Part shown: positions 27,480 through 50,500 of the stretch, in pieces
Layout of the letters: the number at the start of each line of letters is the position of its first letter
Position numbering within the stretch: the stretch's first letter is position 1
DNA from: Cafeteria roenbergensis
Lineage: Eukaryota; Sar; Bigyra; Bicosoecida; Cafeteriaceae
DNA length: 64,000 nucleotides
Reading direction: 5' to 3'
Assembly: GCA_008330645.1 (NCBI GenBank)
Contig: VLTN01000051.1
Span: 62,001-126,000 of the forward strand
The notes under the pieces: model-generated
The model's database searches: none
What the model saw: only the letters and a program-made list of their open reading frames with translations
What the model was told of the DNA's origin: nothing
Position numbers and translations under genes: made by a program

Positions 27480-28829
27480 GTCGGGAAGCTTGGTGCGTCT
27501 TCCACGGGTCGCGAGCGATGCGCTCGAGGCCCGGGACTGGGCAGCACGAGTGCCGGCCGGCGAGCTTGTCGCAAGAGCTTTGGCAAAGTACATATTGGCA
27601 GGTTGTCGTACATATGAAAATCAAACAACCCGCGTCCCGCAAAGCCGCAGGCGCGCCCAGGCCTTGGCTCCTGCAGCGACGGGCGCCGGTGAGTGGTGTG
27701 CACGCGCGCGAGGCCTCGCTGGTCGAAGGCCTTGCAGGCAGGCCCTGGCGCTCTATTCGCCATTCAAGCAGTGCGGGGCGGTTGCGGCTTGAAAGGAGCT
27801 GCCGCAGTAGCGAGACGCAGGGAGCACGACGACGCGCCGAACGCAAGTGGCAGCAGACAAGAGCCTGGCCAGTGCGGTGGATGACGGCCAAGGGGCCGGG
27901 TGCTCGGGGCAGGGGTTGCGCGTTTTGCTCGCCGCAACGCAAACCATTCTCGCGCAAGCCGGCTTGATGTTTTTGGGCGGGCTGCTCGGTGCGCGCCGTG
28001 GCACCTGAACACGTCGCACTGTCGCTGCGCGCTGTCAGGAGCCGCCCGCTTTCCGCAGCACAGCGAAGGACTGCCAGGGACGCCGCCCCTCTGCTTTGCG
28101 GCCCGTGTGGGCGCGCTGCGGGGGCAGCAGAACGCAGACGCCGGCGCGGCTGCAGCGGCTGATGCCGACCCGACCGCGCAATCACGACGGCAGCAGAAGC
28201 GCGGCCGCCACGACACTTGCCCTTGGGGCATTGTTGGCTCATCCCTTTCTTGCTCGTTTCGGCCACCAAAGCGTGCCGTGCTTGCGCGCCCGTCCTTCAA
28301 TGCCCCACTCTCGGCTCCGGGGAGCGGTGGGGGCGGGCATGTCGACTGGGGTTCCAAACGGTGGCGCTGACCCACGCACGAGTGTGCCGCCCGCCCACGC
28401 CGCCGAGCCGCTCCCTCCCACTGTGATTCCCACGCCGAGCAGCTTTTCTCGCGGGGGGCTGCGCGGCCGGCCAACTGCTGCGAGGTCTGGCGCGCGCAGC
28501 CTCGCAGGCAGCTGCGAGTGGCTCGAGCCGCTCTGCCGGCTTTGGCGTGATCATTGCGAACACTGCGACTGCCGCGGGGTTGAAGCACCGGCGCAGGCAG
28601 CCTCATCAGGGCCTCGCCCGTCCGCTCCCGGCAAGACCGCCGGCTCCCGCGCGCGCAGTCGCCCGGCCCGCGCTGCAGCCGGCTGATCCTCGCCCCGCGG
28701 AGCCGGAAGGGTCGCTGCCGCGCGCTCGGGTGTACGACAGCCTCAACCTCTGCGCAGCCGTCGCCCCGCGAGGCGATCTCGGCCCACCTCCGCTCAGGCG
28801 CGCGCCCCTGGCGGGGCAGACGGTGACAA
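27480..28829. other. Divergent intergenic region between Tmc copy 4 and GPCR-INPP4
   Basis: 1.35 kb separates two divergently transcribed genes, so it should hold both promoters and both 5' untranslated regions. Open frames here are Arg/Ala-rich with no recognisable motif, and I treat them as chance. No tRNA-like B box is visible. Confidence 0.45.
27589..27615 (-). promoter_or_regulatory. AT-rich direct repeat upstream of Tmc copy 4
   Basis: TACATAT occurs twice (27589-27595 and 27609-27615), 20 bp apart, in the most AT-rich patch of this area, 110-136 bp upstream of the copy 4 start. Read on the gene's strand it is ATATGTA. This is a plausible core promoter or binding site; the evidence is composition and position only. 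Confidence 0.25.
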
Positions 28830-31800
28830 ATGGATCCCGATATCGGCGCGGAGCCCGCCGGCTGGACGGCTTTTGGGGTCTTCTCCACGCTGACCGTCGT
28901 CGCCGCGGCCCGGATGATCATTCACCTCCCGACCGGCCGCCAGAGCGTGTGCGGTGCCGCACTCGGCTTCCACGCTGTCCTCCTGTTGTGGACACTCGCG
29001 CTGACGGTGTCGTCGGCGCTCTTTGTGCTTCCGTGGAACACCTCGTTCGACAACCTGCTTTTGGACAACGCCGCAAACTGCTTCTCGCTCACGGTGAGAC
29101 CTGCCGCTGGATGGCAGCGCTCGCGCGCTCGCCCTGGAACCCGGCACGAAAGGGTCTGCGTGTGCGCGACTGGCTCTGATGCGGCCGATCCGGTGCGCTG
29201 TGCCGGTGCGCTGGCACGCGTCCCGTGACGCGTCCCGTGACGCGTCCCGTCCCCGAGGCAAGCACCCAATCCCCGCTCCAGGGCGGCGGCCATGACCGTG
29301 CCCCGGCCTCCCGTGACGAGCCCTTCGGCCTGTCCCCTCCACGTGCCGCCGCCGCCGCCCGCCTCCAGCCAGGCCCCCCCTGCTCCACGTGCCGCCGCCG
29401 CCCGCCTCCAGCCAGGCTCCCCCTGCTCCACGTGCCGCCGCCGCCCGCCCCCAGCCAGGCTCCCCCTGCTCCACGTGCCGCCGCCGCCCGCCTCCAGCCA
29501 GGCTCCCCCTGCTCCACGTGCCGCCGCCGCCCGCCTCCAGCCAGGCTCCCCCTGCTCCACGTGCCGCCGCCGCCCGCCTCCAGCCAGGCTCCCCTGCTCC
29601 ACGTGCCGCCGCCGCCTGCCTCCAGCCAGGCTCCCCCTGCTCCACGTGCCGCCGCCGCCCGCCTCCAGCCAGGCTCCCCCTGCTCCACGTGCCGCCGCCG
29701 CCCGCCTCCAGCCAGGCTCCCCCTGCTCCACGTGCCGCCGCCGCCCCGCCTCCAGCCAGGCTCCCCCTGCTCCACGTGCCGCCGCCGCCCGCCTCCAGCC
29801 AGGCTCCCCCTGCTCCACGTGCCGCCGCCGCCCGCCTCCAGCCAGGCTCCTCCTGCTCCACGTGCCGCCGCCGCCCGCCTCCAGCCAGGCTCCCCCTGCT
29901 CCACGTGCCGCCGCCGCCCGCCTCCAGCCAGGCTCCCCCTGCTCCACGTGCCGCCGCCGCCCGCCTCCAGCCAGGCTCCCCCTGCTCCACGTGCCGCCGC
30001 CGCCCGCCTCCAGCCAGGCTCCCCCTGCTCCACGTGCCGCCGCCGCCCGCCTCCAGCCAGGCTCCCCCTGCTCCACGTGCCGCCGCCGCCCGCCTCCAGC
30101 CAGGCTCCCCCTGCTCCACGTGCCGCCGCCGCCCGCCTCCAGCCAGGGCTCCCCCTGCTCCACGTGCCGCCGCCGCCCGCCTCCAGCCAGGCTCCTCCTG
30201 CTCCACGTGCCGCCGCCGCCCGCCTCCAGCCAGCCTCCCCCTGCTCCACGTGCCGCCGCCGCCCGCCTCCAGCCAGGCTCCCCCTGCTCCACGTGCCGCC
30301 GCCGCCCGCCTCCAGCCAGGCTCCCCCTGCTCCACGTGCCGCCGCCGCCCGCCTCCAGCCAGGCTCCCCCTGCTCCACGTGCCGCCGCCGCCCGCCTCCA
30401 GCCAGGCTCCCCCTGCTCCACGTGCCGCCGCCGCCCGCCTCCAGCCAGGCTCCCCCTGCTCCACGTGCCGCCGCCGCCTGCCTCCAGCCAGGCTCCCCCT
30501 GCTCCACGTGCCGCCGCCGCCCGCCTCCAGCCAGGCTCCCCCTGCTCCACGTGCCGCCGCCGCCCGCCTCCAGCCAGGCTCCCCCTGCTCCACGTGCCGC
30601 CGCCGCCCGCCTCCAGCCAGGCTCCCCCTGCTCCACGTGCCGCCGCCGCCCGCCTCCAGCCAGGCTCCTCCTGCTCCACGTGCCGCCGCCGCCCGCCTCC
30701 AGCCAGGCTCCCCCTGCTCCACGTGCCGCCGCCGCCCGCCTCCAGCCAGGCTCCCCCTGCTCCACGTGCCGCCGCCGCCCGCCTCCAGCCAGGCTCCCCC
30801 TGCTCCACGTGCCGCCGCCGCCCGCCTCCAGCCAGGCTCCCCCTGCTCCACGTGCCCCGCACTGCTCCACGCGCCGCCACCCGCACTGCTCCCCCCCCCC
30901 CGCCACCCGCAGCTCTACCTCTTCGTGGACGCGCACTGGCGGGGGCTGCTCCACCCCGCACAGAGCCGGCAGCGCCGCCAGCTCACATGCGTGTTCGTGG
31001 CCGCAAACCTGGCCCTATACAGCCTCTCTGCCGCTCTCGTCATCTGGGAGTACATTGACACCGGTGACTCCGCCGACGTCGACGATTACTACGCCATGTG
31101 GTGGGGCGCCGCCTCCAACCAGGGGGTCCTCCTCGTCATCGCTGTGCGCGTCCTCGCGGCAGCGAGGGACCTCCGGTTTCGCGTGCTCGGCCCACTGGCG
31201 ACCCCGGCCAAGGCGGCGGCCGGGCCAGCGGGCGGGGCATCTCAGGAGGAGGCCTCTCTCGCGAGGCTGGCTGCCGCCGACGGCGCTGGCCCCGCCGCAG
31301 CTGGTGGCGCCGCCCGCCGACAGCGGGGCGGGTTCCCGGTGCGCGGCAAGGGCGGTGGCAGCGGCGCCGCAAAGCGGTGCTGCGGTTTCGCGGCGGGGAG
31401 CGGCGGGGCGTGCGGCGCCTGTCACTCCAGCCGGCTCTGCTGCTGCTGCTGCTGCGGCGGCGGCGGCGGCGGCGGTAGCGCTGACAGCAGCAGCAACACC
31501 ATAGGCGGCGGTGGCAGAGCCGCTGCAAGGGGCTCTTCCAAGCCGGGGGCTGGGGCAGCTGATGGGCGAGGCCGTGGCCGCAATGCGGGCTCTGCCAAGT
31601 CACGGCCCTCCCGCCACTCTCGCGTCGGCGGGAATTCCGTGCGCCAACGTGACGGGGCGGTGATGGTCGGAGGACTCGGCGAAGACAGCGGGCGGCGCCA
31701 GGTCGCTCAGCCGTTGCTGCAGGAGCACCAAGGAGAGTCGCTCACACCCCTCCTCATGCCCACCGCTTCGTCGATCGACAGGTCCCCCCTTGGACGCGCC

Positions 31801-33882
31801 CTGGCTCGAGTGGCCTTCCCAAACCGCGCCACGTCGCTGTCCTCCGGCGACGAGCCCGATGACGTCATCCGCGGGCCGCGCTCGGACGAGGACGAGGACA
31901 TCGCCGCCAGCGCAACGCGCAGCCGCGTCACAGCCGATGACGTCATCCGCGGCGACGTTGTGTCGGTAGAGCTGGCAATGACCGGCAGAGCCGGCCTGGG
32001 GTCGCTGTCCTCCGAGGCGCGGTCCATAGTCCTGGGGTCGCTCGACGTGGTCTCCGCCGCCATCGCCGCCTCCGCCCTCGCCATCGCCGCCAAGGCCACC
32101 CTCTTCCTCGTCCTGCGCAGCGCCGCTCTGACCTTCCCCTTCTTCGTCGTCGCTCGGGCCGGGCTCGACGCCGTCGCGGCCCTGGCACTCCTCGCCCTCA
32201 TGTGGTCGCCACAGCGGCGCCTCTGCTCGGCAGAGCCACTTCGTAAAAACGGCTCTGCTCCGGCCTCGCCGTACATGTGGTCCTTCGTGGACTCCGCCTT
32301 GTCCTGCCTGTGGCTCTGCCGGGTGTGCCAGCGTGACGCAGAAGTGGACGCGCAGGTGGGCCACTGGGGGGGCTCTGCCGGCGCCATGGGCAGGGCGCTG
32401 GTGGCGAAACTCTCCGCCGAAATTGATGGAACGGTGACCTGGCGGAGATGGGCGCGTGACCTGGACCTGTGGGAGGAGCGATCGCGAAACGATGCCGAGG
32501 CGATGCTTTCGAGACTGGGGTCGAGCCTGGGCCCTGGCGGCTGGAGTCACTCAGCCAACGCACCGGCCGGCGGATCCGGCACATCAGTTGCGCGTCAGCG
32601 GCTGATGCGGGCTCGCGTCCCGTCCGGCAGAGCCGATCGGTTGAGCGCAGCAAGCGCCGACGATTCGTCGATCGCGGGTGCCGGTGTCAGCACTGGCGCC
32701 GCCAGCGCTTTGGGCGGCGGCGCTGCTGCCAGTGCAGGCGTTGCTGGTGCTGCCTCTGGCGTCGCCCGTCGCGGCAAGCGTCGCTCAGGATGGCTGGCGT
32801 TTGAGCGACGCGCAGAGTTGGATGAGAGAAACGCCCTGTTGCTCTCCAGCACGGTGACTGGCAGGGGACGTGCTGCTGACACGAACCTGACTGACTCCTG
32901 CATGGAGAATTGGCGGTTACGGAGAGCCAGCGCAAGCAAGGGACCCTGGGGCTCCGCGCCCAGAGTGGCACGTCCCTCGCGAGTCCGGGGATACGTTCCG
33001 CCGCTGCCACAGCCGCTTCTACCCGCGAGACGGCAGTCGCAGCATCCAGCTCTGCCGGCCAGCCTGCGGGTCACCGCTCAGCCCAACGGCGCCGCAGTCG
33101 CTGCGCTGGCAGTTGGCAGTGCCGGGCTGACGCCGTCGTCGTCGTCGTCGTCGTCGTCGTCGGCGCCGCCGCCGCTGCAGCGTCCACGGCCGCCACCGGT
33201 GCCGCCGGTGCCGCCGCCAAAGAGTGCCTCCAGCCACGGACCGCCGGTGCCGCCGCCGGTGCCGCCGCCGCCGGTGCCGCCGCCGTCGTCGTCGTCGTCG
33301 TCGACTTCGTCTGCGCCCTCGGACCCCCTGCAGGCAGGAGCCCTGTCTCCCAGGGACGTCACGGACGCGGATGTGGCGGTGGGGCCTGTAGCCGGTACAG
33401 CCTGCCCGCTGGCGCCTCTGCCGGAGAGCTTGAGCGGCTCGTCGATCGACGCGCCACGCCAGCCCACCGTTGCGATCCCATCACCTGCGGTTCAGCTGGC
33501 TGTCATCTCTGAGTCAAGCCGCCGTCGAGAGTGGCAGAGCCGAGCCGACAAGGCTCTGCTAGGGGGCGTCGTTCTCCGGCCAGCTGTCACCGTGGTGCAC
33601 GCTTGTGGGGTCACTCAGCGACGCTCGGACGAGTCGCTCGCGGTTTCGGGGCTCTGCCGATTGCAGGATGTTCGCACCGCAGCGGACCTTCGTGACCGGG
33701 CTGTGATTGAAGAGAGACGCCAGGCTGAGCAGCAGGCAGGGCCTGGCGGCCGTGTCTATGGCTTGCGCCGCGACGATGCAGTTGACAGCGACAGCGGCGT
33801 CAGACCCAGCGCGACGTCGCGGGCAGGCCTCGCCAGCGGCGGAGTCAGTGGGCAGCGCGGCGGGTCTGTTCAAGGCAGCGGC

Positions 33883-33954
<72 letters not shown>

Positions 33955-36900
33955 GCGGCGAGGCTGCCGCCGGCAGTCGCAACGTCTGATCCGCTCACTG
34001 CGTCGCGTCTCTGGGAGCTCTGCCACGCGGAAGAGCGACGCAGCCACTTCGCGAGCGACCCCGATACGGCGTCAGACGCGGGCCCTTCGCGCAGGGGGCC
34101 CGCGTTGCAGGTGCTGGTCCTTGGCACTCACGGCAAAACGTGGCGCCGACTCGTGACAGAGGCTGCAGACACGGCCCTGTCCGTTGGAAAGTCGCTCGCG
34201 TCACCCATTGGCACTGCCAGCGGACCCACAGCCGAGCTCTGCGACGCCGCCCCGTACGGAGGCACCGAGCCCTCGCAAGACACTGCCGCGGCTGCGGCGG
34301 ACGGCGCCCCAGACGGTGAGCGCTCTGCCGGCAGGCAAGCACCGCGGGGCTTCTCGCGGCTGGACGCGGAGGGGCTGCAGGCGTGGACGTCGGGCGAGGT
34401 GCCCCCGCACCGGCTGGGCTCTACCGGCTCTGCTGGCTCTGCCAGCTCTGCCGGGGGCGCCGGCGAGGTACTGGCTGGCAGTGTGTTGGCGGGGTCCCGT
34501 GGTGCGGGCGAGCGGCCCACTTTGCGCGCCGACGGCAAGCCCGCGACTGGCGCTGCTGCTGGTGTTGGTGCTAGTGCTGCTGGTGGTGCTGGTGGTGCTG
34601 GTGGTGCTGCTTCTGGTGGTGCTGGTGCTGGTGCCGGGGCTCTGGTTCGGCCGCTCGCAAAACGGGTGTCGGCGGGGAGTGGCGGGGCTGCCGCGGCCGA
34701 CACCGTGGCAGGCACCGGGGCAGGTACCGGGGCAGGCACCGGGGCTCCCGTCACGCCCACGTCTGCGAGAACAGCCCCGGGCACACCCCGGAGCACCGCG
34801 GTCACTCGCGGATGGGGCTCTGCCGCCGGCTCTGCCACCGGCTCTGCCGCAGGTGAGATGCCACATGACTCGTCCCCGGTCCGGCCCCGGAGGCTTGATG
34901 CCGAGCTGGCAGAGCCAAGCCCGCTGTCGCCAGCCGACAGGACCGTCGAGTGGCTGCTGCCGCTGACGTCATCCGAACAGGCTCTGCCACTCCCAATGTG
35001 GCTTCCAATGGTGCTGGGTTCCGGCAGAGCCAGTTTGTCGGTTCACTCGTCACTTCGTGTCAGGCTTGAGCACCACCATCGCTCGGCTGGGCGGTCGGCT
35101 CTGCCGATGCCCTCTTCGGTTTGGATGACGTCAGCACGGCCGGTGCCGCCAAGCGGGGGACCAGGCCGTGGTGCCATCACCGGCATGTCCAGCACCGCTC
35201 ACAGTCACGTCAGCGGAGGGGGCCGGTGGCACGACGCGGGCGAGCTCACCGCTTCGCGGGCGGCTCTGCCGGCCACCACGGGCTGGAGGACAGCGTCGCT
35301 GCGAGAGGGACAGATCGGCCCGGCGGCCGGGGTCTCTGCAACGGATACTCGTCGGCACCATGGAGCCGGTGCGGTTTCGCTTGAAATGGGGAGTCCGACG
35401 GCGTCTCCGAAGCTCAGAGCGCAGCGGGCGTCCCAGTCGGTCATGTACCAATCAGTTGCCAGTCTAGAAGACGTCAGCGCAGCAGCGCACAGGGCGCGTG
35501 CCCTCCTGCTGGGGTCCATGGCCAGCTCTGCCGCGCCGGCCACGCTGGCGCCAGGCCGGCGCCGTGCGGCCAAGCCGTGGGGCGTGTTTGAGTCCGCGAC
35601 GCATCTGCAGCTGGCAACGTCGCTCAGGGCGTTGCTCCGGGCGGAAACCGCCGCGGGGTCTCTGGCTGGTCAGACGTCCATCTCAACAGGCGTGCTCGTG
35701 CTGGACGAGACCGTGTCGAGGCGGCTGACGTATGCGCTCAAGGCCGTCGTCGGACGAGGCAGCGGTCCCTTCGCGGCCCCTGCAGCTGCAGGGGCGGGGT
35801 GGGCGTCGCCCAGCGAGGCACCGCCCAGCGAGGCAGCGCGGCATCGCCCAGCGAGGCAGCGAACGGTGCGCTCGCTGGCTGCGGACAGGTCAGCAGGCCA
35901 TCACGTGCGCGTCAGGGAGGCATCACCGGAGGCCAGCTGAGGGCCCTGTCTGACGCTGACGCCCGCATGATCGGCTGCGCCTGTGCGCTGGGCGTGATCG
36001 ACGTGGCTCTGCCCCTGGACGCCGCTGCGGCTCTGCTGCACCGGCAGATCTTTGGGCCGATCGCCCCGGGTGCTCCGCCGACGGGTGCCCTGCTGCAAGC
36101 AGCGGGCTCAGCAGAGGTGGCCCCGGGCACCGCCTTGGCCGCTGGGGCAGCGACCGCGCGCGCGGCCGGCGATGGCAGCGGCAGCGGCGGCGGCGGCGGC
36201 GCAGACGGCCCGACGCCCAGTCTGGGGGTTAGGGTTGCGGGGCCCCGCTCAAGGCAGGCGTCTGTGTCCTCGCTGGAGAGTCACGGTGCCATCACAATCC
36301 CATCACCTGGGCGTCCAGGGAGCAGGCGCGGAACTCCGCTGCAGCAGGGAGCCTCCAACGCCGCCTCCGGCATCGCAGCGGTTTCGCCTACGGTTTCGCT
36401 TGCGGTTTCGCCGGCCGAGGCCGCCGTGCTGCTGCTGCGCACCCGGTCCCGGCGGGCGTCGCGTGCGTCGTCGTCTGCCCGGTCAGCAGGGCCAGCGGCG
36501 GCCGAGCGATCGAGCGCTGCGCATCGGCAGAGCCGGTCCGGGAGCGAAGTGGTGTCGTCGGCTTCCAGCTCTGCGGCGGTGTCACCGTCGCATGCTATCG
36601 GATCGGGTGCGATCGACCAAGGATCGACGGACCAGGCACACCAGGGGCCAGCTCTGCAGGCAAGCGGCTCTGCCGCGTCGGACACCGACCTGGCCGGTGG
36701 CAGCAGCGGCACCAGCTGGGGCGGGTCAGTGAGCGGCGTCGAATCGCCGGCGGACGCGTGGCCGATGACGATCGCGTGATTCGCACCACGCCGTCGGCCT
36801 TTGCCTCCGGGCGAAACCGCGCCGCGTCGCTCAAGGCACTCCAAGGGCAACCACCAGTAGCAACAGCAGCAGCAGCAGCACCAGCTGGAGTAGCTGGAGT

Positions 36901-39438
36901 AGATGGCGCAGTTGCTGCTGCTGGAAGTGTGAAGGGGCAATCGGCAGAGCCAGTTCCTTCCGGGTCGTTCAGGGAAATGAATCCTTCCACACGGGCCGCG
37001 AGGGCTGCTGGCCGGCCGCCGATGTCGCCCCCACGGTCGAGCAGAGCCGCGTTCGCGACTTCTACTTTCGACGGTTTCACGTTGCGGACCTCTGACGGCG
37101 ATGCGACAGCAGGCGACGATGCGCGGGACTTGTCCGAGTCAGCAGTCGGTCAGATGGGCGTCACCAGCGGATCGTCGCCGCGTCACGGCAGGCTCAAGGG
37201 TCGTCGTTCGTGGCGGTATTCGGGGACGTCAGCTCTGGCGTCGCTCCAGCAGCACTTCCGGCAGAGCCAGAGAGACTCTTCGTCAATGCAGAGCTTAGAG
37301 CTCTCAAGCCGAGACGTGTCTCGCCGGGGGTCGACGGGAGCTTCGGATGACGCGGCGCAAGGACATCACGACGACATCCCGCCGCCGGTCACGGCGGCAT
37401 CACAGGCGCTGTGGCTCTGCCGGCTCCGCGGCGAGGCAGGGGCATCACTTGGTCAATCGTCGATGCCGGGCCGCCGGCTGGTGCTGGCGGGGTCTCTGGG
37501 CGGCCCCTCCGCGGCAGCAGCCGCCATGGCCGCGGCAGCGTGTGTGGCGGAGTGCGAAACCGCCGGCGACGAAACCGCCGGTGGCCCGGCAACGCCCTCC
37601 GATCCCAGGCTGCGATCGCACGTCTCGCCCGCGGGCGCAACGGCGGCGGCTGCGGTGGATGCAGCGACGGATGCGGCGACCACGACGTCGCCGGAGGGGT
37701 CCATTGAGCCATCGGCCGGACTGCCGTCACGTCGTGCCGCTGCGGCTGCATCGCCGCTCGCAAAGAGCTGGTCCATCGTGACGGCCGTCCGGTCAGCCGT
37801 TGCTGCCGCAGGGGCTGCTGCAGCGCAGGCGTCTGGCAGAGCCAGCGAAGCGAGGATCCTTCCGGCAGGACAATCATCGGATGTGGTACTCGTGTCTCTG
37901 GAGTGTTTGTCATTTGTGCTGCCGCTTGCCACAGGCAACTGGACCATCACGGACTCGTCCTCACTTCACTTCACCACAGCCCGGAAGAGCCGCGACGCAG
38001 AGCCGTTGCGACCCCGGCTGTCCTCGGCATCGCCGTCCACAGACGCAACGGCTCTCAGGCGGCTGTCCCTCCGAACCGGCTCTGCAGCGTCGGCCCCTCG
38101 GCCCGAGCCCAGACCCCTCTCTGCGGCGGCGGCGGCGGCGGCGGACTGCGCCCTAGGGGCTCTGCCGGCTCTGCCGGGGCTGGAGTCTCCCAAATCGGCA
38201 GAGCCACGACCGGCGGGGTATCTTTCGGGCGCTGGCGGCGGCTTGCACGCCGGGTCGGAAGACGCCGGCTCAGCGGGCGCTGGTGCCGAACGCACCGGCT
38301 CTCGTGACGGCGGCATGACGCCTCAGGGCGTCGGTGGGCCGCTCGCCGCCGCCGCTGCCCCTGCAGAGCCGGGCTGGGCGCAGCGCCGCGCGACGCAGCC
38401 GGCCGAGACCCCGCCGCCGCCGCTCGCAGCCCCCGTGGCCGCGCCTGTTGCGGACCCGCTGTCGCCGCCAAGCCCTCCGCGGCTGTCACACCACGCGGGG
38501 CCGCAACAGGCGCCGCACACCGCGCCATCGTCGCCTGGGCCCGTCGGGTCTACCCTCGCCGTCTTCGCGGGGGGGCCCCTGGTCCCCATGCCTGCCGTGA
38601 TGGTGGTTGCAGTTGTGTTCGCGGCAGAGGCCCTGCCGGGGGTGGACGCGGCAACGGCTCTCAGGACGGGCCAGTGGCGGTGGCGCGAGGTTGGCCGGAC
38701 GGGAGCGACGCTGGCAGAGCCAGTGGATACCGTCTCGACTCTGAGCGTATACAAGCCAAGCGACGGTGCGGGTGGCGGAGATGCCGCGTCCGACAGCGGC
38801 GCTGGCGCTGGTGGCGGTGCCGCTGGTGGCGCTCATGCCAGCACTGCTGCTGCGCTGGCTGCGTCTGCATCTAGCGGTGGTGCCGGCGCTGGACGAGGGT
38901 CTGGAGCTGACGATGGAAGCGCCGAGGCCTCCATCAGTCGTGACGGCGGCGCAAGAGTGGCAGCGCCGTGCGGGTGCCTGCACCGGGCAGCCTGGGGCGT
39001 GGTCATTCGCGTGCCCAAGTCTGTTGCCATCAGCGCAGCATCAGCCTCGGTCAGCGGACCGTCGTCTGACTGGGCGAATCTAGACCCGTCTCTGGGCAGC
39101 GACCCCGGCCAGCCGAGCGGCACTCCGCGCCACCAGGGCCCCGCAGGGGTCCCTCTGTGCGTCAGACTCCACGTCGTGTCCGTGCCATCCAGTCGCGGCG
39201 GTTTCTCGGGCGCCCGCCGTCACCGGGCCGCCGGCCAGCGCGTGTGGTGGGCGGACGATCAGAGCAGGCAGGGCTCTCGCGACGCTGTCAGGCGCGGCGC
39301 GTCAGCAGACGAGGCGACGTCGGATTCACGCTGGCGGCCGCGCAAGGGGACGTCGGCAAATTTGGGAAGGATTTCGTTGCTCTCACGGCGCGGGCGTCAC
39401 GGTCACGGTCACGGTCACGGTGACGGTGACGCCGACGA

Positions 39439-39480
<42 letters not shown>

Positions 39481-42400
39481 TGGCTGCGAAGATGCCGTTG
39501 GCGGCGATGACGACGACGGTGACGATCCGGACGACTACATGGGCGACGAAGGCGGGCAGCGCGGAGGCGACAGCGGCTCGCGCGGCAGCGGGGAGCGAGG
39601 CTTGCACCAATCAGCTGCAGGTCGCGCAAGTGCTGTCAGGCTCCGGTCATTGGGTGGTCGAAGCGTGGCTACCGGCCGCGGTGACGCGCAAAGTTCCGCG
39701 GTCAGCCACGAGTCAGGCGACCATCACTCGCAACTCAGTCACGCGGCGTCGCTGCACGCTGCCTCGGCCAAGGCAGCCTCAGGCGCGCTTTCGGCCCTGC
39801 CAATCACGACGGCGGTGCAGGCTATGGGATCCGCATCGCTGAAACCGCTCCGACCAGAGGCCGTGTCTGCAGTCAGCTCTGCTGGAACCTACGCGCCGGT
39901 CTTGCGATCGACCAAGACATTCGCGGCTCAACCCGGTCACGCTGATGGCGGCATGATGGCGAGCGGACGCGCCAGACAAGTCCTTCATGATGCGGAGTTC
40001 TCGGACAGCGACGAGGACGACGCTGACGAGGACGACCAGGACGACGACGGCCGTGGCAGCGAGCTGGGCGAAGCCCGCACCGCTGCGAGCCACGCGCGCA
40101 CTGGGTCGCAGAGCTCTGCCACTGGCAGAGCTGGGACGGAGAGCAGGCCTCCCACGCCCCGCTCTGCCGGCGGTTTCGCCTCGGTGGCATCCGTTCACCG
40201 CTCAGGCTCGAGGAGTCGCTCAAGCCTCCCGGCGGCATCAGGCGCGGGTCAGCCCTCAGTCGCCCACGCGCCACGAGCGGGGCCCCCGCGCAAGGCTTCG
40301 AAGGACGTCGACGCGGTCAAAGCCGGCTCTGCAATCGCTGGAGCATGCGTTGGCTGGGGCGGCGCTGCGCTGGGAACGAGCGACGCTGACGACGCGGCAG
40401 AGCCGCCAGCGGCAGCGGCCCTTCCGGGAAGCGGAATCTTCGGACGGCGTGGCAGAGCCGTGTCTGTGGGCATCACAAGCGTGTCACGCCTGCCGGGAAT
40501 GCGGCAAACCTCAGCTGACTCGCCGGACGCCTCCTGGCAAGCCCCTCCGGCTGCGGCGGGTGACCTGCTGACTGGCTCACGAGCGGGAGCTGACCCGCAC
40601 TTGATTGGACTCGACGGCTCCGCCAGACGAGCCACAACTGGCTCGCGGAGTCACTCAACGGCCCTTCCAAGCCGCATGGCCAAAGCCACGCTGCAAACCC
40701 CGTCAGCGGACCGTCACCGAGGCATCACCGCGGAGCCAAACGACGCAGCCCTGAGCCAGCCGCCGCGCCACCCACCCCGCTCCAAGCCCTCCGTGCGAAC
40801 CGCGCCCGCTGCGCCGCCCGCGGCAGCGGCGCCGTCTCCAAGGATGGCTGATGGCTTGGTTGCCCGGTCGGCCGCCGACGCGTCGCTGACGTCAGCGCTC
40901 GGCCACCCGCTGCCCCCGGTGAGAGCCGGTGAGGCGGCGGTTTCCGTTTTCCTTACCACTCTTGGCGGCAACTGCCGGTTCAAGTCGCGGCAGTCAACTT
41001 CAACGGCCGGACCCGCAGCTGATGGGACATCGCCGGAACATCACTTGCCGCTGCACGGAGTCGAAGCAACCGAGTCGTTCGTGACGCTTGAGCGACGGTC
41101 AAACGTTGTGCCGTCGCGACGCCGGGCGCGGTCCGTATCGGCCGGCAGAGCCACCCACGAAGGCCGCACGGCGACGGTCGCAGCAGACGGCATCTCAACG
41201 GCCGGAAGCGACAGCTGGTCGCGCGGGCGCCAGCACGTCGGCTACGAACCGCCAGTCGCTCTCACCCGCCCCGCGTCAAGAGGACTGCTGGCCAGCGTGG
41301 CCTCCCCCGACCGCGGACCCCGACCGACGGACGATGCCGCAACCACAGGAAGCATGCTGTCGCCCCGGGCCCTAACCGCCGCCTTGCCCTCCCCGCCCGC
41401 TGCCGCCGCCGCCGCCACAGCCGCTGCTGCCGCCGCCGCCTCTACCGCTGCTGCCGCCGCCACCACTGCCACCGCCGCTGCCCACCACCGCGGCGCTGGA
41501 AATGCAGAGGCACTTCTACGGGCAGTGGTGCCGGCAGAGCTGGTCGTGCAGGTCTCCGAGCCTGCGCGACTCGCTGGCAGGTGGCGGGTGGAAGGCCCCT
41601 CCTGGCGCCACGTCGGCTCTGCCGGCCAGTCACTTGGCAGTCACGGCGAAACTGGCGGGGAAGGGCATCCTTGGCCAGGCTCCCGGGCTCAAGGTTCCAC
41701 ATCACTGGACGGTCAAACACCGGTCACGGGCCAGTCTCTTGTTTCATCAAGGCCGCCGCAGTCGGGGCTGGCGGCGGCCAGGCCCGGCGACCGGCCGCTG
41801 ATGCGTCACACGGCGGCCTGCGTTCGCGTCCCGCTGCCGCTGCTGCTGCCGCCGCTGGCCCCGCCGCCGCAAGATCCGCTGCAGCGCGGAGGCGACGAGT
41901 CGTCGCCCTCAGACGGCCGGCAATCCGCCGCTGCCGCCGCAGAGCGCGCCCTGCGCTCAGGCGCGATTCCGGAGGACTGGTCGAGTCAGTGGTTGGTAAC
42001 CACCGAGTCGCTTTCGGAAAGCTCTGCCGGCACCGCGGCGCTGCAGTCGCTGCTGCCTCTCGTGGCAGAGGCGAGGCGGTTGCAGGCGTCGGCTTGCGGT
42101 TTCGCGCTGGCGTCGCTCCGCGCCGAGGCCCGCGCAAGCGACTCGGCGTCGCTCAGCATCGAGACGGCGTCGGGCCCGTACGAGGCCCTCCGTGCCCACA
42201 TCAAAAGAGCCGTTGAGCTTGGCGAAACCGCCTCGTGGCTGGCGGCGCGTCGCTCATCGTACCTTCGCGAGGCGGAGGAACTTATGGCCGCCCACGCGGA
42301 GATTTCCTCCAACGGGCGGTGTTTCCGGGCGTCGGCTGCCAAAAAGTCGCTCAGTCGGCGGTGGATCCCGCTCAACCTTCACGCTCACCGGTGCGCGGCT

Positions 42401-45400
42401 GCGATTGTTCCAGACGCGGCAGCGTCGCTGCAGCTGCAGCTGACTGCGCAGCACCACCAGCACCACCAGCACCACCAGCACCACCAGCAGCACCAGTACC
42501 ATCACCAGCAGTCGGCCGATGTGCCGTTGGCTGCAGCCAGCGTCAGCACCAGCGCCGAGCGCAGCGCGCCGCAGCCGGCCACCGCGACAGGCCTATCGAC
42601 GGCCGCCGCCTCCGCATCGCCTCTTCTGGCGCGGCCGCGCGACCCCAGCGCGGCGTCGCCTCCGCACGCGGTGACTGCTGCCCCGGGACCGGCGGGTGAC
42701 CTGCAGGTGATGCCCCCTGGCCTCTCTGCCGTGACCACCAGCTCAAGCGACGATGCGGCCACGGCCGCCTCCGCGGCGACGACGGGGTCCGCACCCGGAG
42801 CCGCGAGCGCAATCGGTGCCAATGCGGACACGAGTGCGAGTGCCAGTGCCAGTGCAGTTGCAGTTGCAGTTGCAGCTGATGGCTCGTCGCCGCACTACCG
42901 CGGGTCTCTCGTCGTGCTGAGCGCTGCCGCGCTGCGAGTGAGAGACGCGATGCGGAGCGACGTGCTGGTGTATTCTGGGTCCGGTGGCATGGGGCCCTGG
43001 GCAGGGCCCCGCGTCATCGTGACGGTTGGGGCCCCTGCGGCGCACTGTAAGGCCCGCGGTGGCGGTTTCGGCGGCGGTAAGGGCCTGCTGGAGCGGGCCG
43101 GGGCGGCGCTACGTTCCGCCGTGAAGGCTGACGCTGCGGATGCCGCTCTGGCTCTGCCAATGTACTCCGCACCAGCGACGGCATCTTTGATGGCGTCACC
43201 AGCAGCGGCGGCGGCGGCATCAGCGGCGGCGGGTGGATACTCGTCTCTCAGAGGGCGGCAACCCGGTGGCAGCGGGCTTGCGGGGGGGGCCGCGGGCACG
43301 GGGTCCCAGCGGGGCATGGGCGTCGGCAAGGGAAGTGGCAGCGGCAGCGGTAGCGGCAGCGAAACCGCTGGAAACGGCAGTGCAACGGACACAAGTGGTC
43401 CAGCGTACATCGGCTGCGCGTCACCAAGTCCCGCCCCAAAGATGGCCTGGGCCCGATCAGCTGCTGTCACTCCAGCGTCCAAATGGGGCCTGTGGGGGCC
43501 CTGGGGTGGGGCCCTCGACAGCGACGGTCCAAAGTCCATCGCAGCCGCATCAGCCCAAGAGCAGCGCCGCCGTCTGGCCGGCATTCACTCGATTGGCGGA
43601 GGCGGCGGCGCTCATGATGCTACCGCAACTCACAGCTCTGCCGGCAGAGCTTCGATCTCTCTTCGTCGCGGCGGTGCCGCCGCCGGGCTCGCCGCCACCG
43701 ACTGCGTCGGCGCTGGCGCTGGTGCTGGTGCTGGTGCCGGTTTCGTCGGCGACGACAGCGCGGTCGGGCAGCCTGGCGCCCTGCCCAGCCCCGCCATCGT
43801 GTCCGCAGTCGTGAGCGACGCGTCTGCGCGCATGGCGGCGGGATCGATGCCACTTCACCCCGGCTCTGCCGCTCGGCGCGACAAGATCGGCGGCTCTGCC
43901 GTGTCGGCGTCGTCCTCTTCCGCCTCGCGCAGGAGGCGGTCTGGCCACGGCACGAATGGCTCCGCCGACCAGCACCGCCTCGCCCGGCTGTCGCAGCTGC
44001 GCGGCGCCGCGGACGAAGTGGCCACGCTGCGGTTTCGGGCGGACGCGGCTGCAGTGCAGGCCGTGACTGCTGCGACGTCGGCAATCAGCTCTGCCGTGAG
44101 GGCCCCACTCCGCGCTCTGCGGCAGACCGGCAGAGCCATCGCCCGGGCCGCGCTGCGCCGTGCGTCCGGCAGCGACGTGAGCCAGCCCGCTGGCGCCAGC
44201 ACAGCCAACGGCGGGGACACGGCGAGCGCGGGGCTGGCGTGGGCTGAGGCCAACGCACAGATTCTGTCCTGGCTGCCGCAGCCGGGGTCACTGGGGGGGT
44301 CAGACGCCGAGGCAGGCATCCCGCTTGCGTGGACGTCGCTGCTGTCGGCGTACGGCGCAGAGGCAGGTATGCTGAGCGACGCGGCGGTTGCTGTGGCGGC
44401 GCTGCGGCGAGTTGCAGTCGTGCTTGTGGACGCGAAGTGGGTGCGACGAAGAGGCTCTGCATCGATCCCACCGGCAGAGCCGCCATGCTGCGAGCCGCGA
44501 AACAGCGCAGAGCTGGCGGACAGCGATAGCGCGTCGTCCAGCGACTCTGGCGGCGAGACCGCGACCAGCGATCGCGACGACACACCCCCCCCGGCAAGCC
44601 GCCGCGGTTTCGCCGCACCAAGCGCCTCCGCGGCGCCGGCCACGCCCTCCGCTGGCGCCAGCTCTGCCGGGACGCGTGCCGCCTCGCCGCGGCTGGCCCG
44701 TGGCACCGCCTCCGCCGCCGAATGGACTTCGGCGCTGCGGCGCCGCGCCCCCCTCCGCGTCATGTCCCGGTTCGCTGACGTCATCCGCGCCGAGCCGGCA
44801 GAGCCACGAAACCCCCGGTTCGGCTCTGCCGCGGGGGTGGTGTTGGTGCTTCCCGTGACAGGCCTGGCGGCTGCGGTTTCGGCGCGCCTCATCCACCCGT
44901 CCGTCGCTCGAGCAGCTGTCGCCGCGGCTCTGCCGGGAGTGTCGCGCGGGTCCGGCGCGGTTTCGCCGCTGCCTTGGCTGCCGCCCCACCTGCGTGTGGC
45001 CGTGCTGTCGGGGGCAGCTCTGCCGCTGCGTATCCGCCCGATGCTCGCAACGGCTGGGCTGAATGAAGTGGCGACGCTGGCGCGGCTGACCATGGCGGCG
45101 AAACTCCAGCGATCGATCAACGCGGCTGCGGTTTCGTCGGCAGCGCGTGTGACGCAAGCCCTCGGAATGGCGGCCAGAGCGGCGGCGGCTGCGGAGGCAG
45201 CGACGGCAGCGGACGCCGAGGCCGAGGCAGCCCACGCCGCCGAGGCAGCGGCAGCGTCAGCGGCTGCGGCTGCGGCTGCGGCAGGCGGGGCTTCTGGTGT
45301 CGCTGCCGGTGCTGCTGCTGCTGCTGCCGGTGCTGCTGCTGGTACGAGTTGGAGACATGCCGCACGTGGCGGCGGCGCTGGCGCGTCCGGACGTCGCTCC

Positions 45401-47032
45401 GTCACGTGGGCAGGCACGTGGCGCAGACCAGCTGAAACCGCCACAAGCCGGTGCGCCCGGACCACACTTCGTTTCTCTGCAGAACTGGGCAGGGCAAGGG
45501 CCCCCGACGCCTCCACACCGCTTGGTGCGGCCTTCCAAGCACATGCAGCAGCTGTGAGCGACGCGGTGTCGCTCATTGACTGGCTGCGCCCGCCTCCTCC
45601 GCGGGGTCTGACCCCCACCGGCTCTGCCGCGTCAGACCCCCCGTCAGCATACGCACGAGCGTGGGAAACGGCCAGCAACGCCTCCCAGGCCTCAGGCCAT
45701 GGCGCGCCTCGCGAAACCGCTCACGGCGGAGGACTGGCTCCAGCGGACGGGCATGTGACCGGGTCTGCAGGGACAGCGGTGGACGACGTCGTATTGGCTC
45801 TGCCGGGTCTCTCATCACTTCTCGTTCGTCGTTTCTCCGCCGCTTGCACTGCTCTGGCGTCGCTGTGCAGAGCCGTTGACGATGAGCAACGCGCTGTGTC
45901 CCTGCTACGCCCGGCAGAGCTCTCCGGGCGTCGGTCAGGACGCCGGCGGGAGGCCATGCAGCTGGCCCTGGAACGCTCTCGAGAGTGGTCGGCTGACTCC
46001 GTCGGCTTGGCTGGCGGCAGCTTCAGGCGCGGCGGCGGCGGCGGCGGCGGCGGCGGAGGCGGGGCGGGTGGCCAGTCCCCCTTGTGGATGTACGGCTCTG
46101 CAGGTGACTTGGGCGAGGACATCAACGACAGCGGCATCGGCGGAGACGGCGGTGCTGGAGCTCGAATCGGTGCCGATGGAATCGTGAGTGGTGGTGGTGG
46201 TGGCACTGGTGGTGGTGGCACTGGCACTGGTGGCACTGGTGGCGCTGGTGGCAGTGGCGGCGCCGACACCGCCGTCACCATCCTCGCAGCCGTCGAGGCC
46301 TGGGCGGCTGTGGCGGGCGCTGCCCGGCTGGTCAGCTGCAAGAGCGCCAAGGACCGCACGGCCATGGCCGTCACGCTGGAGGCCGGCAGAGCTGCCGCAG
46401 CGGCAGCCATGACCGGCCACGTGGAGGTGCTGGCCGCGGGCGGAGTGACCCGGCGCCGGGCTGCCGGTGTGGATGCTGGCGCGGCCGGCCGAGCGGGCGC
46501 GCCCGCGGTGGCGCCTGCTCCCAGCGACGCTGCGCTGCTGCTGGCGGCGGCGGAGGCCCTGCTAGGCGACGATGCGTCCCAGCCGGCTGCGCGCGGCGGC
46601 GACCCGGGCGCTGACCCCTCCGGTGGGCAGCGACAAGCGGCCGGCCCGGGGCTGGCCCGCGCGGTGACGGACCCCGGGTCGCATCGCGCCGGGTCGACGG
46701 CAGGCACGCAGTCGCAGCTGGGCCTCGCCGGCGCGACGTCCGTGTCAGCGAGGCATCTGCTCGGCGCTGCCGGGGCGGCCCGGCCGGACGCCAACGCAGC
46801 CGCTCTCCGGCGACGAATGCCCCCTCCGGCGGCCGCGCCAGCGCTCCGGGCAGCAGCGGCGGAGGGCACCGCTGAGGCCATTGCCGAGGCTTCGAGGCGG
46901 CACGGCTGCCGGCTTCCCAACTGCGGGAAGAACACGGGCAAGGCAGCCTACTGCTTCTCCAATGTGCAGCGGTCGTTCTTTCCGCCGCAGTACCGGTGCC
47001 CGCCCGGAACCGGAGGCGGCGGCATGTCGTAG
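28830..47032 (+). CDS. GPCR-INPP4 bigram: seven-helix receptor-like domain fused to inositol polyphosphate 4-phosphatase
   Basis: Exon 1 is 28830-29093 (ATG; two hydrophobic helices; ends ANCFSLT). A 1,819-nt intron (29094-30912, GTGAGA...CGCAG) joins in phase 0 to LYLFVDAHWRGLLHP, which completes helix 3. Helices 4-5 lie at about 30982-31175, a 290-residue low-complexity loop follows, and helices 6-7 lie at about 32050-32203 (ARAGLDAVAALALLALMW). A very long Ser/Ala/Gly-rich region precedes the INPP4 homology: FRASAAKKSLSRRWIPLNLH (about 42320-42380), VIVTVGAPAAH (about 43012), GLNEVATLARL (about 45055), the CX5R active site CKSAKDRT (46337-46360), and RCPPGT near the TAG at 47030-47032. INPP4 enzymes remove the 4-phosphate of PI(3,4)P2 with this Cys. 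Total about 5,400 residues. The frame changes near 35.80-35.94 kb and again near 36.73-36.78 kb; short introns or single-base errors are both possible. The receptor half resembles TOM1/THH1-like seven-helix proteins; its ligand is unknown. Confidence 0.8.
29337..30857. repeat. 43-bp minisatellite, about 35 units, inside intron 1 of GPCR-INPP4
   Basis: Tandem units begin CTCCACGTGCCGCCGCCGCC and continue with a CGCCTCCAGCCAGGCTCCCC-type half. Each is 43 bp, with only scattered single-base variants and a few 1-bp indels or one-triplet changes. The plus (sense) strand is pyrimidine-rich. Because 43 is not a multiple of 3 and the unit lacks stops, all six frames stay open, which produces spurious long reading frames. 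The array lies wholly between the donor (29094) and the acceptor (30912). Confidence 0.95.
33128..33312 (+). repeat. GTC-repeat tracts coding poly-Ser and Pro/Val-rich runs
   Basis: In the reading frame of GPCR-INPP4, (GTC)n runs at about 33129-33162 and 33286-33305 encode serine tracts. Between them are repeats of a CCGCCGGTGCCG type encoding PPVPPPVPPP. They form part of the disordered region and probably arose by slippage. Confidence 0.8.
33883..33952 (+). repeat. (GCA)n microsatellite coding a poly-Ala tract
   Basis: About 23 uninterrupted GCA triplets, followed by GCG codons, encode roughly 25 consecutive alanines in the disordered part of GPCR-INPP4. The near-purity implies recent slippage and likely length polymorphism. 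Confidence 0.9.
34550..34755 (+). repeat. GCTGGTGGT-type and GGCACCGGGGCA-type coding repeats
   Basis: Tandem GGTGCTGGT variants (about 34558-34637) encode a Gly/Ala tract, and about four GGCACCGGGGCA-like 12-mers (about 34708-34745) encode GTGAGTGAGTGA. Both are in frame in the GPCR-INPP4 linker. Confidence 0.7.
39405..39483 (+). repeat. GGTCAC hexamer run and (GAC)n coding poly-Asp
   Basis: Three to four GGTCAC-type hexamers encode alternating His/Gly, followed by about 16 GAC/GAT triplets that encode a poly-aspartate run. Both lie within the GPCR-INPP4 reading frame. A second acidic patch follows at about 39500-39535. Confidence 0.85.
42445..42513 (+). repeat. CACCAG repeats coding a His/Gln tract
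   Basis: Imperfect CACCACCAG repeats give a His/Gln-rich run just after the NLH-containing INPP4-like segment. It is a probable disordered insertion within the phosphatase-homologous region. Confidence 0.75.
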
Positions 47033-47583
47033 CGCGGCCACTGGACCGGCCGGCGGGTGGCCGGGTGCCGGCGCGTCGTCTCAACCCCGACGGGCCGTCC
47101 AGGCGGCGCGGCCTCGTCGGGTCGGGGCGCGATGGCGGCACGGCGAGCAGCAGGCTGGGAGCGGCACGCCCTCCGGTGGGATCGCGTGAACCAGCGCGTC
47201 CAGCTCCGAACAGCAATGCCGAGGTCGCTTCGTTTTGCGTGCGTGGCAGTGTGGGCTGCATGAGGGGCTGCACTGGTTTCAAGCGCATGGCACACTCAGA
47301 CCGGGCTCGCAGCGCGGACACTCGCTCGCACTGGTGGTGCGGTCGAAGCACACGCCGGGCGCGCGCGCTCCAGCAAGCGGGGGCGTTGACGAGCGATGAG
47401 CAGCAGGCCGCGATGGTCCCTTCGCGCCTGACTGAGCCGAGCGTAGCTGCGCAATCGAGAGCGCCGTTGCCAAGCCATCCAAGACGTACGGGACCACCGG
47501 GCGTCAATCACTGCCACGCAGAAGCAGGCCCGTGCATGGGCCGCATGGACCGCGCGAGATTCGACCGCCGTGCTGTGGGGCTG
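47033..47583. other. Convergent intergenic region, GPCR-INPP4 to ankyrin gene A
   Basis: The first 313 bp (to about 47345) are duplicated at 53724-54036, so the INPP4 3' flank belongs to the segmental duplication. The remaining 240 bp to the ankyrin stop codon are unique in the window. No gene is seen. Both neighbours transcribe towards this spacer. Confidence 0.6.
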
Positions 47584-50500
47584 TCAGAGCAGCTGGGCCA
47601 GGTCCTCGAGCTGCTTCACGCGGTGTTCGAGCGCTGCCATGGCGGCCACGGTGGCGGTGCGGTATGCTTCCGCGGCGGCGACGTGAGCGTCCAACTCGGC
47701 CTGCTTGGCGGCCAGCGCCCTGACACTGCGCTCTCGCGCGCCCTCCCGGCTCCGATGAAAGTGCCCCACAAGCCCAGCGATAATAGACGACACTGGCTTT
47801 GGCTCTGCCCATTCGAGGGCCGACTTGCCCGCCTGCGAGGATGGTTGGCTACATTGGCGATTGGAAGTGTGCTTGATACGAACCAGAGTGCGGAGCTGGC
47901 TGGACGACAGAATTTCCCGAGAGAATCGATGCAACTTACGTCGTCCTTGGCCCCCAAGTCGGCGCCGCGGTCCAGCAGCATCGCCATGGCGTCCACGTGG
48001 CCTTTCCTAGCAGCCACGATGAGGGCTGTCGCTCCATCCTGCGCAGCAAACGCAACGTATGCCCCACACCAACACGCCCACCGCCCATCACATCCATCAC
48101 GCCGCCATCGCACTGCTGCCAACAGGGACAACCCGCCGGCGCGCCGCCACCGGCATGACTGCTCCCGCCCTCGAAGCCCGGCGCCGCGAGCCACACACGC
48201 CCGGCAGCACAGCCCACCCCAACGACGCCCCAGTCGCCTCATGCGGGGCTGCAGCTGCGAAGAGCAACCCATCGGGCTCACAATGCCCTTGGCCTCAAGG
48301 TCGGCGCCGCGGTCCAGCAGCATCGCCATGGCATCCACGTGGCCGTTCCCAGCGGCCACCATGAGGGCTGTCATTCCATGCTGCGCAGCAAACGCAACCC
48401 ATGGCCACCACACCAACGCGTCCACCGCCCATCACATCCATCACGCCGCCATCGCGCTGCAGCCACCAGGGACAACCCGCCGGCGCGCCGCCACCGGCAT
48501 GACTGCTCCCGCCCTCGAAGCCCGGCGCCGCGAGCCACACACGCCCGGCAGCACAGCCCACCCCATCGACGCCCCAGTCGCCGCAGGCGAGGCTGCAGCT
48601 GCCAAGAGCAACCCATCGCGCTCACAATGCCCTTGGCCTCCAGGTCGGCGCCGCGGTCCAGCAGCATCGCCATGGCGTCCACGTGGCCGTTCCCAGCGGC
48701 CACCATGAGGGCTGTCACTCCATGCTGCGTGGCAAACGCAACGCATGGCCACCACACCAACACGCCCACCGCCCATCACATCCATCACGCCGCCATCGCA
48801 CTGCTGCCACCAGGGACAACCCGCCGGCGCGCCGCCACCGGCATGACTGCTCCCGCCCTCGAAGCCCGGCGCCGCGAGCCACACACGCCCGGCAGCACAG
48901 CCCACCCCATCGACGCCCCAGTCGCCGCATGCGAGGCTGCAGCTGCCAAGAGCAACCCATCGGGCTCACAATGCCCTTGGCGTCAAGGTCGGCGCCGCGG
49001 TCCAGCAGCATCGCCATGACGTCCACGTGGCCGTTCCCAGCGGCCACCATGAGGGCTGTCACTCCATGCTGCGTGGCAAACGCAACGCAAGGCCACCACA
49101 CCAACGTGTCCACCGCCCATCACATCCATCACGCCGCCATCGCGCTGCTGCCAACAGGGACAACCCGCCGGCGCGCCGCCACTGCCGGCATGACTAGTCC
49201 CGCCCATCGACGCCCCAGACGCTGAAGTTAGGGCCACAACTGCGAACCACGACCCAACTGACTGACACTCTCCTTGGCCTCAAGGTCGGCGCCGTGGTCC
49301 AGCAGCATCGCCATGGCGTCCACGTGGCCGTTCACAGCGGCCGCCATGAGGGCTGTCACTCCATGCTGCGTGGCAAACGCAACGCAAGGCCACCACACCA
49401 ACGCGTCCACCGCCCATCACATCCATCACGCCGCCATCGCGCTGCTGCCAACAGGGACAACCCGCCGGCGCGCCGCCACTGCCGGCATGACTAGTCCCGC
49501 CCTCGAAGCCCGGCGCCGCGAGCCACACACGCCCGGCAGCACAGCCCACCCCAACGACGCCCCAGTCGCCGCATGCGGGGCTGCAGCTGCGAAGAGCAAC
49601 CCATCGGGCTCACAATGCCCTTGGCGTCAAGGTCGGCGCCGCGGTCCAGCAGCATCGCCATGACGTCCACGTGGCCGTTCCCAGCGGCCACCATGAGGGC
49701 TGTCACTCCATGCTGCGTGGCAAACGCAACGCAAGGCCACCACACCAACGTGTCCACCGCCCATCACATCCATCACGCCGCCATCGCGCTGCTGCCAACA
49801 GGGACAACCCGCCGGCGCGCCGCCACTGCCGGCATGACTAGTCCCGCCCATCGACGCCCCAGACGCTGAAGTTAGGGCCACAACTGCGAACCACGACCCA
49901 ACTGACTGACACTCTCCTTGGCCTCAAGGTCGGCGCCGTGGTCCAGCAGCATCGCCATGGCGTCCACGTGGCCGTTCACAGCGGCCGCCATGAGGGCTGT
50001 CACTCCATGCTGCGTGGCAAACGCAACGCAAGGCCACCACACCAACGTGTCCACCGCCCATCACATCCATCACGCCGCCATCGCACTGCTGCCAACAGGG
50101 ACAACCCGCCGGCGCGCCGCCACCGGCATGACTGCTCCCGCCCTCGCAGTGCGACGCCGCGAGCCACACACGCCCGGCAGCACAGCCCACCCCGTCGACG
50201 CCCCAGACTCTGAAGTTAGGGCCACAACTGCGAACCGCGACCCAACGGACTGACACTCTCCTTTGCTTCAAGGTCGGTGCCGCGGTCCGGCAGCATCGCC
50301 AAGGCATCCACATTGCCACCCACTGCAGCCACGATGAGGGGTGTCAAATCGATCTGCGCATCGAAGCAGAGCATGGCCACCACAACAACACACCCATCGC
50401 CCACATAGGCTGCCATATCACCATTGCCTCGCAACTGCACGACACTCGCCCCTGACACGCCGCTACCGGCATGACTTCCCCCGCCCTCGAAGCCAGGCGT

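Follow-up and report, generated by a model that had tools for sequence, protein, structure and literature searches.

A probable GPCR-INPP bigram gene in the bicosoecid flagellate Cafeteria

Described receptor fusions and the Cafeteria locus

Fusions of a seven-helix receptor to an inositol polyphosphate phosphatase (GPCR-INPPs) are given by van den Hoogen et al. (2018), in the cited passages of their paper, only for the oomycetes and for the eustigmatophyte alga Nannochloropsis gaditana (PMC5784254). The statement of an earlier note on this DNA that such fusions are known as GPCR-bigrams in oomycetes is thus in print, the alga being a further host. In the same passages it is speculated that the kinase and phosphatase receptor fusions act as a couple or a cycle and, among non-oomycete stramenopiles, only Aureococcus is named for the GPCR-PIPKs (PMC5784254). 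The models discussed in the cited part of van den Hoogen and Govers are direct action, action via G proteins or mere placement of the enzyme, none of which is chosen there (PMC6033456). According to a passage of PMC9694693, INPP4 homologues are present in oomycetes and a robust INPP5 is absent. INPP4 would therefore be the likely phosphatase type in the oomycete fusions too. The active site of INPP4B is printed as CKSAKDRT (residues 842-849) and its main substrate as PI(3,4)P2 in the relevant passages of PMC3248162. Among the papers listed in the literature searches, no report of a GPCR-INPP or INPP4 receptor fusion in a bicosoecid was found.

The window, i.e. the whole stretch of 64,000 nucleotides analysed here, corresponds to positions 62001-126000 of contig C51 in a genome of 167 contigs and 36,303,456 bases. 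Its host is Cafeteria, a free-living marine flagellate which is a bicosoecid and not an oomycete. Of eight primers printed in PMC6972860 for C. roenbergensis genes, two were compared with this genome and each has a single exact match. The cited part of PMC6972860 describes Cafeteria as a bacterivore in culture and as infected by a giant virus and a virophage; PMC8547959 and PMC10945749 use the name C. burkhardae. The forward strand of the window carries a gene which is probably a GPCR-INPP bigram, composed of a seven-helix receptor, a linker of more than 3,000 residues and a predicted C-terminal lipid 4-phosphatase of the INPP4 type with a Cx5R motif. At the level of sequence, the fusion in Cafeteria is well supported, and we infer catalysis and its control by the receptor.

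As in the GPCR-INPPs of oomycetes and of Nannochloropsis gaditana, in the cited descriptions, an N-terminal seven-helix receptor and a C-terminal phosphatase would be united in one protein (PMC5784254; PMC6033456) and, as for the oomycete proteins, the host is a stramenopile with GPCR-PIPKs in the same genome. Unlike the published GPCR-INPPs, the present one belongs to a bicosoecid (Bigyra). When compared with the published ones by description only, the two Cafeteria fusions are distinguished by their lengths (about 5,467 and 3,017 residues) and their very long linkers, and the window copy also by a third inner loop (ICL3) of 286 residues. The CKSAKDRT active site and its C-terminal position are shared with INPP4A and INPP4B, as they appear in the cited passages of PMC3248162, whereas the receptor in front and the long insertions between conserved blocks separate the window gene from them; from 36803 on, no C2 domain was matched in it. 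The GPCR-PIPKs of the RpkA type resemble it by the junction of seven helices to a phosphoinositide enzyme, but the window gene has a phosphatase in place of the kinase and no LRx9GI motif in 30913-35832. The Cafeteria fusion is most likely a further GPCR-INPP of known design, in a stramenopile branch new for it.

The receptor part

The gene is predicted to start at the ATG in position 28830, the first one past an in-frame stop. Exon 1 (28830-29093, forward strand) encodes in 88 codons a short N-terminus, two hydrophobic helices (TM1, about 28869-28928; TM2, about 28956-29030) and the first half of a presumed third. A phase-0 donor is found at 29094 (CTCACG/GTGAGA) and an acceptor (CCGCAG) just before 30913, where the frame resumes with LYLFVDAHW. 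The splicing of intron 1 (29094-30912, forward strand; 1,819 nt, GTGAGA...CCGCAG), as deduced from the genomic letters, unites both halves of the presumed TM3 (NCFSLT/LYLFVDAHW). The donor and the acceptor are kept in both haplotypes, with an intron of 1,819 nt in the window versus 1,260 nt in C152, the contig of the second haplotype. A 43-bp minisatellite of 35 copies, highlighted by Tandem Repeats Finder at 29348-30860, is wholly contained in this intron, the length of which varies between the haplotypes. A stretch 73% similar to the minisatellite is present at C11:260754-261117.

The receptor part of exon 2 (30913-32205, forward strand) was delimited by hydropathy, loop charges and the stop-free frame. 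It would encode the rest of TM3, TM4 (about 30982-31056), TM5 (about 31099-31164), ICL3 (about 31165-32022), TM6 (about 32023-32115) and TM7 (about 32140-32205). In the spliced product, segments exceed a hydropathy of 1.5 at residues 13-33, 39-69, 112-134, 153-172, 459-483, 475-496 and 492-519; we read them as helices 1, 2, 4, 5, 6 and 7, helix 6 being represented by two segments that overlap. Helix 3 was assigned by position alone, its best 19-residue hydropathy mean being 0.77, below the threshold. In composition shuffles, seven segments or more were obtained in 1 of 500 at the threshold of 1.5, and at 1.6 six segments were reached in 8 of 500; at lower thresholds the receptor is not distinct from the shuffles (118 of 500 at 1.3 and 212 of 500 at 1.0). 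With our own helix limits, the charges of the outer parts are 0+/3- for the N-terminus, 0+/2- for ECL1, 0+/5- for ECL2 and 1+/0- for ECL3, and those of the inner parts are 1+/0- for ICL1, 4+/0- for ICL2, 38+/26- for ICL3 and 4+/1- for the C-tail. These values fit a predicted topology with the N-terminus outside and the C-terminus inside. The N-terminus consists of 13 residues, i.e. the ectodomain is almost absent.

Seven helices in total are likely in the window copy, six of them being clear and the third weak. The earlier note had claimed seven helices ending with ARAGLDAVAALALLALMW, a sequence which is indeed placed at 32152-32205; six clear helices and the loop charges agree with this claim and helix 3 is its weak point. 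The loop of 290 residues which it had announced between helices 5 and 6 corresponds, with the helix limits chosen here, to the 286 residues of ICL3.

A profile comparison with TOM1-THH1, also suggested in that note, gave a result under the curated cut-off. The sole Pfam match of the spliced window receptor is PF06454 (THH1/TOM1), with an E value of 0.1 and 12.4 bits versus a cut-off of 25, and in the genome-wide PF06454 search at E <= 10 no match was reported at the window gene and one was reported on C28. Kinship of the window receptor with THH1/TOM1 is at most hinted at by such a sub-threshold match. The reported C28 match, the only one in the genome at E <= 10, lies on the minus strand of C28:44001-54000, in a frame of 628 codons, and has 21.7 bits, below the cut-off. 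Five pairs of single receptor sequences among the window, C50, C28 and C19 were aligned by hhalign and no match above 0.4% probability was obtained; for the receptor helices of the window and C50 the score was 13.6, and at least 10 of 50 shuffles gave 15.7 or higher. An AlphaFold model of the window receptor exon, built from the single sequence, was too poor for use (mean pLDDT 41.3).

The phosphatase part and its paralogues

The C-terminal part of the window gene (42323-47029, forward strand, followed by the stop codon TAG at 47030-47032) is, as judged from its sequence, an inositol polyphosphate phosphatase domain of the INPP4 type. Two further INPP4-type loci with clear matches are present in the genome, on the minus strand of C50 at about 83.2-92.5 kb and on C7 at 660.9-674.1 kb, and a weak INPP4 match outside the P-loop was detected on C12 (E 0.018, 30%). 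Six ungapped blocks, which start at 42323, 43004, 44333, 45029, 46292 and 46877 in the window, follow one another in the same order in the window, C50 and C7, separated by insertions of tens to hundreds of residues. Five of the six blocks, among them that of the P-loop, exceed all of 500 shuffles, and the block at 43004 was reached by 46 of 500. A hidden Markov model of the C50 and C7 tails recognizes the window exon with an E value of 7.7e-18 in a one-sequence search, the best of 20 shuffles giving 0.031 and the reversed window sequence 1. By blastp, the window tail matches C50 with an E value of 8e-9 and C7 with 2e-7. The catalytic P-loop CKSAKDRT (Cx5R; 46337-46360, forward strand) is identical to the printed INPP4B site; it is intact in the window and in C50 and reads CKSGKDRT in C7. 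These results bear out the earlier claim of an INPP4-like phosphatase with CKSAKDRT in the same direction as the helices, and the INPP4 match sought for the C-terminal part was found against INPP4-type tails.

Pfam and NCBIfam gave no match for the window phosphatase part. No C2 domain was matched by Pfam in the part searched, from 36803 on (a diverged C2 could escape this search). The window tail alone recovered from the PDB mainly glycine-rich chance matches (best E 0.017), or one match at E 4.2. A MAFFT alignment of the three tails was set aside, the window P-loop being misplaced by a long insertion, and an AlphaFold model of the C50 tail, for which C7 supplied the second of two alignment rows, was too poor for use (mean pLDDT 43.7). 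When viral contigs were scanned with the C50 tail, no relative was confirmed among 600 candidate stretches.

At the C50 locus, an ATG exon with helices 1-3 is followed by a canonical 228-nt intron (GTGAGC...CAG) and by an uninterrupted frame of 2,935 codons, from stop to stop, which contains helices 4-7 and the CKSAKDRT phosphatase, for a total of about 3,017 residues. C50 is a receptor-phosphatase fusion, and from helix 4 onward its frame is not in question. Within residues 5-251, nine overlapping segments exceed 1.5 and were read as seven helices. The second outer loop is basic (2+/0-), contrary to the charge rule, and the remaining loops fit or are neutral; PF06454 is absent among the Pfam matches of this receptor. 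C7 has a 4,403-codon frame with CKSGKDRT and one hydrophobic stretch, no segment exceeds the hydropathy threshold in the 4.8 kb examined upstream, and the locus looks like a plain INPP4. Since this frame is so long without a run of helices, great length is typical of the Cafeteria INPP4 family, with or without a receptor. The earlier note called the fusion unusual for its size; in view of this frame and of the 3,017 residues or so of the C50 fusion, giant size is no special trait of the fusion.

The C50 and C7 tails match one another with an E value of 4.5e-15. Against the PDB, the C50 tail alone identified P-Rex2 (E 4.5e-7), and the profile of both tails matched the C-terminal region of P-Rex2 (1e-13) and of three P-Rex1 chains (about 5e-7), with nothing further at E <= 1 (PDB 9zq7, 6pcv, 8tua and 7syf). 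This region of P-Rex is the one called INPP4-like. P-Rex1 and P-Rex2 are Rac exchange factors with another front part and are not known to have receptor helices.

These relatives from the PDB, known as exchange factors and not as phosphatases, raise the question whether the fusion, although real, could be a tethered membrane scaffold or a lipid-binding protein, in which the helices only serve as an anchor or the phosphatase is inactive. The long stretches inserted between the INPP4 blocks and the weak third helix of the window copy are compatible with such a protein. On the other hand, the P-loop is preserved as CKSAKDRT in the window and C50 and as CKSGKDRT in C7, and the inner loops are mostly basic and the outer ones mostly acidic, as in a receptor; we consider the scaffold distinctly improbable and retain a receptor joined to a predicted phosphatase.

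Two features were observed downstream of the gene. A truncated and frameshifted duplicate of its 3' end and downstream flank occupies 52929-54056 (forward strand), with 97.3% identity over 1,130 columns to window 46236-47365 and a 2-nt frameshift. At 47945-49511 lie tandem arrays whose units measure 344 and 297 bp; by eye, their reverse strand resembles ankyrin repeats.

Linker, frame breaks and the second haplotype

The linker (32206-42322, forward strand) extends over about 3,380 residues and is open in the inferred frame. By eye it is of low complexity and rich in Ser, Ala, Gly and Pro; the earlier note had called it enormous and disordered. No Pfam match at E <= 10 was found in the part of the linker searched from 36803 on. 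The inferred frame contains no stop in 1640 + 306 + 3424 codons (5,370 codons), versus 75 and 79 stops in the other two forward frames. For the longest piece alone, the reverse frames contain 41-68 stops each, and in simulated sequence of similar dinucleotide composition the longest open run averaged 437 codons and never exceeded 906 (100 runs).

In the window letters, the frame shifts near 35834 and near 36755. The first frame hits a TGA at 35938 and the letters alone encode a receptor of 1,763 residues without phosphatase. A 47-nt intron at 35.89 kb was considered for the first break and rejected, because a stop would follow at once after its splicing and the break is better accounted for by the haplotype alignment. 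In this alignment, C152 (13,608 bases) is the second haplotype of window 25226-39361, with 98.1% identity across 8,634 columns of 30812-39361. The first break falls in a short tandem repeat (35811-35862, forward strand), 22 nt longer in C152 than in the window, and at the second (36750-36765, forward strand) C152 has 2 bases fewer. An open frame of 1,884 codons (C152 positions 5871-11522) spans both breaks. C152 is rough as well: it differs from the window by one base in exon 1 and at many positions past 37.2 kb, and it stops at window 39361, so that neither contig holds the whole gene in one frame. If the breaks are read as in C152, the joined length is, by arithmetic only, about 5,467 residues, in agreement with the 5,400 or so previously estimated. 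The single continuous receptor-phosphatase gene of the earlier note is supported by the C50 paralogue and by C152, the latter completed past 37.2 kb from the window, but not by the window haplotype as assembled.

The change of frame between 35.83 and 36.76 kb could also be the trace of two adjacent genes, one for the receptor and one for INPP4, joined in no allele. This is very hard to reconcile with C152, where 1,884 codons run through the region in one open frame and the seeming gene end near 35.94 kb does not occur, and with C50, where receptor and phosphatase share a single frame from helix 4 onward; we regard it as highly improbable.

More weight, although still on the unlikely side, is to be given to the possibility that the length changes are real and the window allele broken, the gene then encoding the receptor alone, with 1,763 residues and no phosphatase, while the phosphatase frame would be dead or separately expressed. 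Changes of repeat length are common natural mutations, and the window repeat is 22 nt shorter than that of C152, with 2 extra bases at the second break and the TGA at 35938. The bias in third-position GC is weak as well: 0.58-0.86 in the window gene (450-nt steps) versus 0.74-0.91 in C50 and C7 (600-nt steps). Over window 30913-47029 it lies below that of both paralogues in spite of more than 5,000 stop-free codons, and this lower value could mean weak expression or decay of the window copy. Of the 15 substitutions that separate the haplotypes before 37.5 kb, 9 alter the residue, for a random expectation of about 72%, as do 36 of 53 beyond 37.5 kb, in a noisy stretch; there is no sign of strong constraint. 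Against a broken allele, the 3,424 codons after the breaks are stop-free, whereas decay would soon fill them with stops. The assembly is PacBio-based and polished, according to the cited part of PMC6972860, and C152 shows many one-base differences, so either contig may err. There is real doubt whether the copy of the window haplotype is intact, and the fusion in one gene remains our preferred reading.

Proposed role and other phosphoinositide genes

In the fused protein, the ligand would be small and bound within the helix bundle, since there is almost no ectodomain. The receptor would tether the phosphatase to the plasma membrane or to that of the phagosome, and control it directly or through G proteins or do no more than position it; a linker of more than 3,000 residues would favour tethering over a stiff conformational relay. 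By removal of the 4-phosphate, the phosphatase would convert PI(3,4)P2 into PI(3)P, so that PI3-kinase signals end. We infer, as the earlier note did, a direct coupling of a surface signal to PI(3,4)P2 removal, and the receptor-phosphatase may counter the receptor-PIP kinases of the same genome.

Bigyra would be the third stramenopile lineage with a GPCR-INPP, which hints at an old origin and not at an oomycete invention; this receptor-enzyme fusion probably arose earlier and is more widespread than the published reports suggest. The cycle of receptor-kinase and receptor-phosphatase, a speculation in the cited passage of PMC5784254, becomes testable in Cafeteria, which is harmless. We tentatively propose, as a possibility that we hold somewhat doubtful, that GPCR-INPP4 and GPCR-PIPK were both present in the last common stramenopile ancestor and still act in this free-living bacterivore as opposed receptors, which erase and write phosphoinositides respectively, for prey sensing and phagocytosis.

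PIPK matches were found genome-wide at five loci (C2, C19, C1, C73 and C4), for each of which one 10-kb stretch was examined, two overlapping ones at C4; no PIPK match falls in the region of the window gene in this search, nor in its Pfam-scanned parts. A run of helices lies upstream of the PIPK in C19 and C73, in two different frames for the latter, and is probable in C1 (two segments above threshold); the C2 stretch contains no helix segment and C4 one. GPCR-PIPK genes are thus observed at C19:51001-61000 and C73:35001-45000, and probably at C1:587001-597000. C19 holds LRREVLHYTTLGI, the LRx9GI motif of GPCR-PIPKs, and C73 holds IRREIVTFASIGI (IRx9GI). The LRx9GI motif was not found in C1, nor in window 30913-35832 or in C50. 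For G-alpha, 12 matches were obtained; the 7 that exceed the cut-off fall into 5 loci, and in-frame stops occur in two of these. The PI3Ka helical domain, which is common to PI3 and PI4 kinases, was matched at 4 loci, once in each and always above the cut-off. With these PIPK, G-alpha and PI3Ka loci, the wider pathway is plausibly present in Cafeteria.
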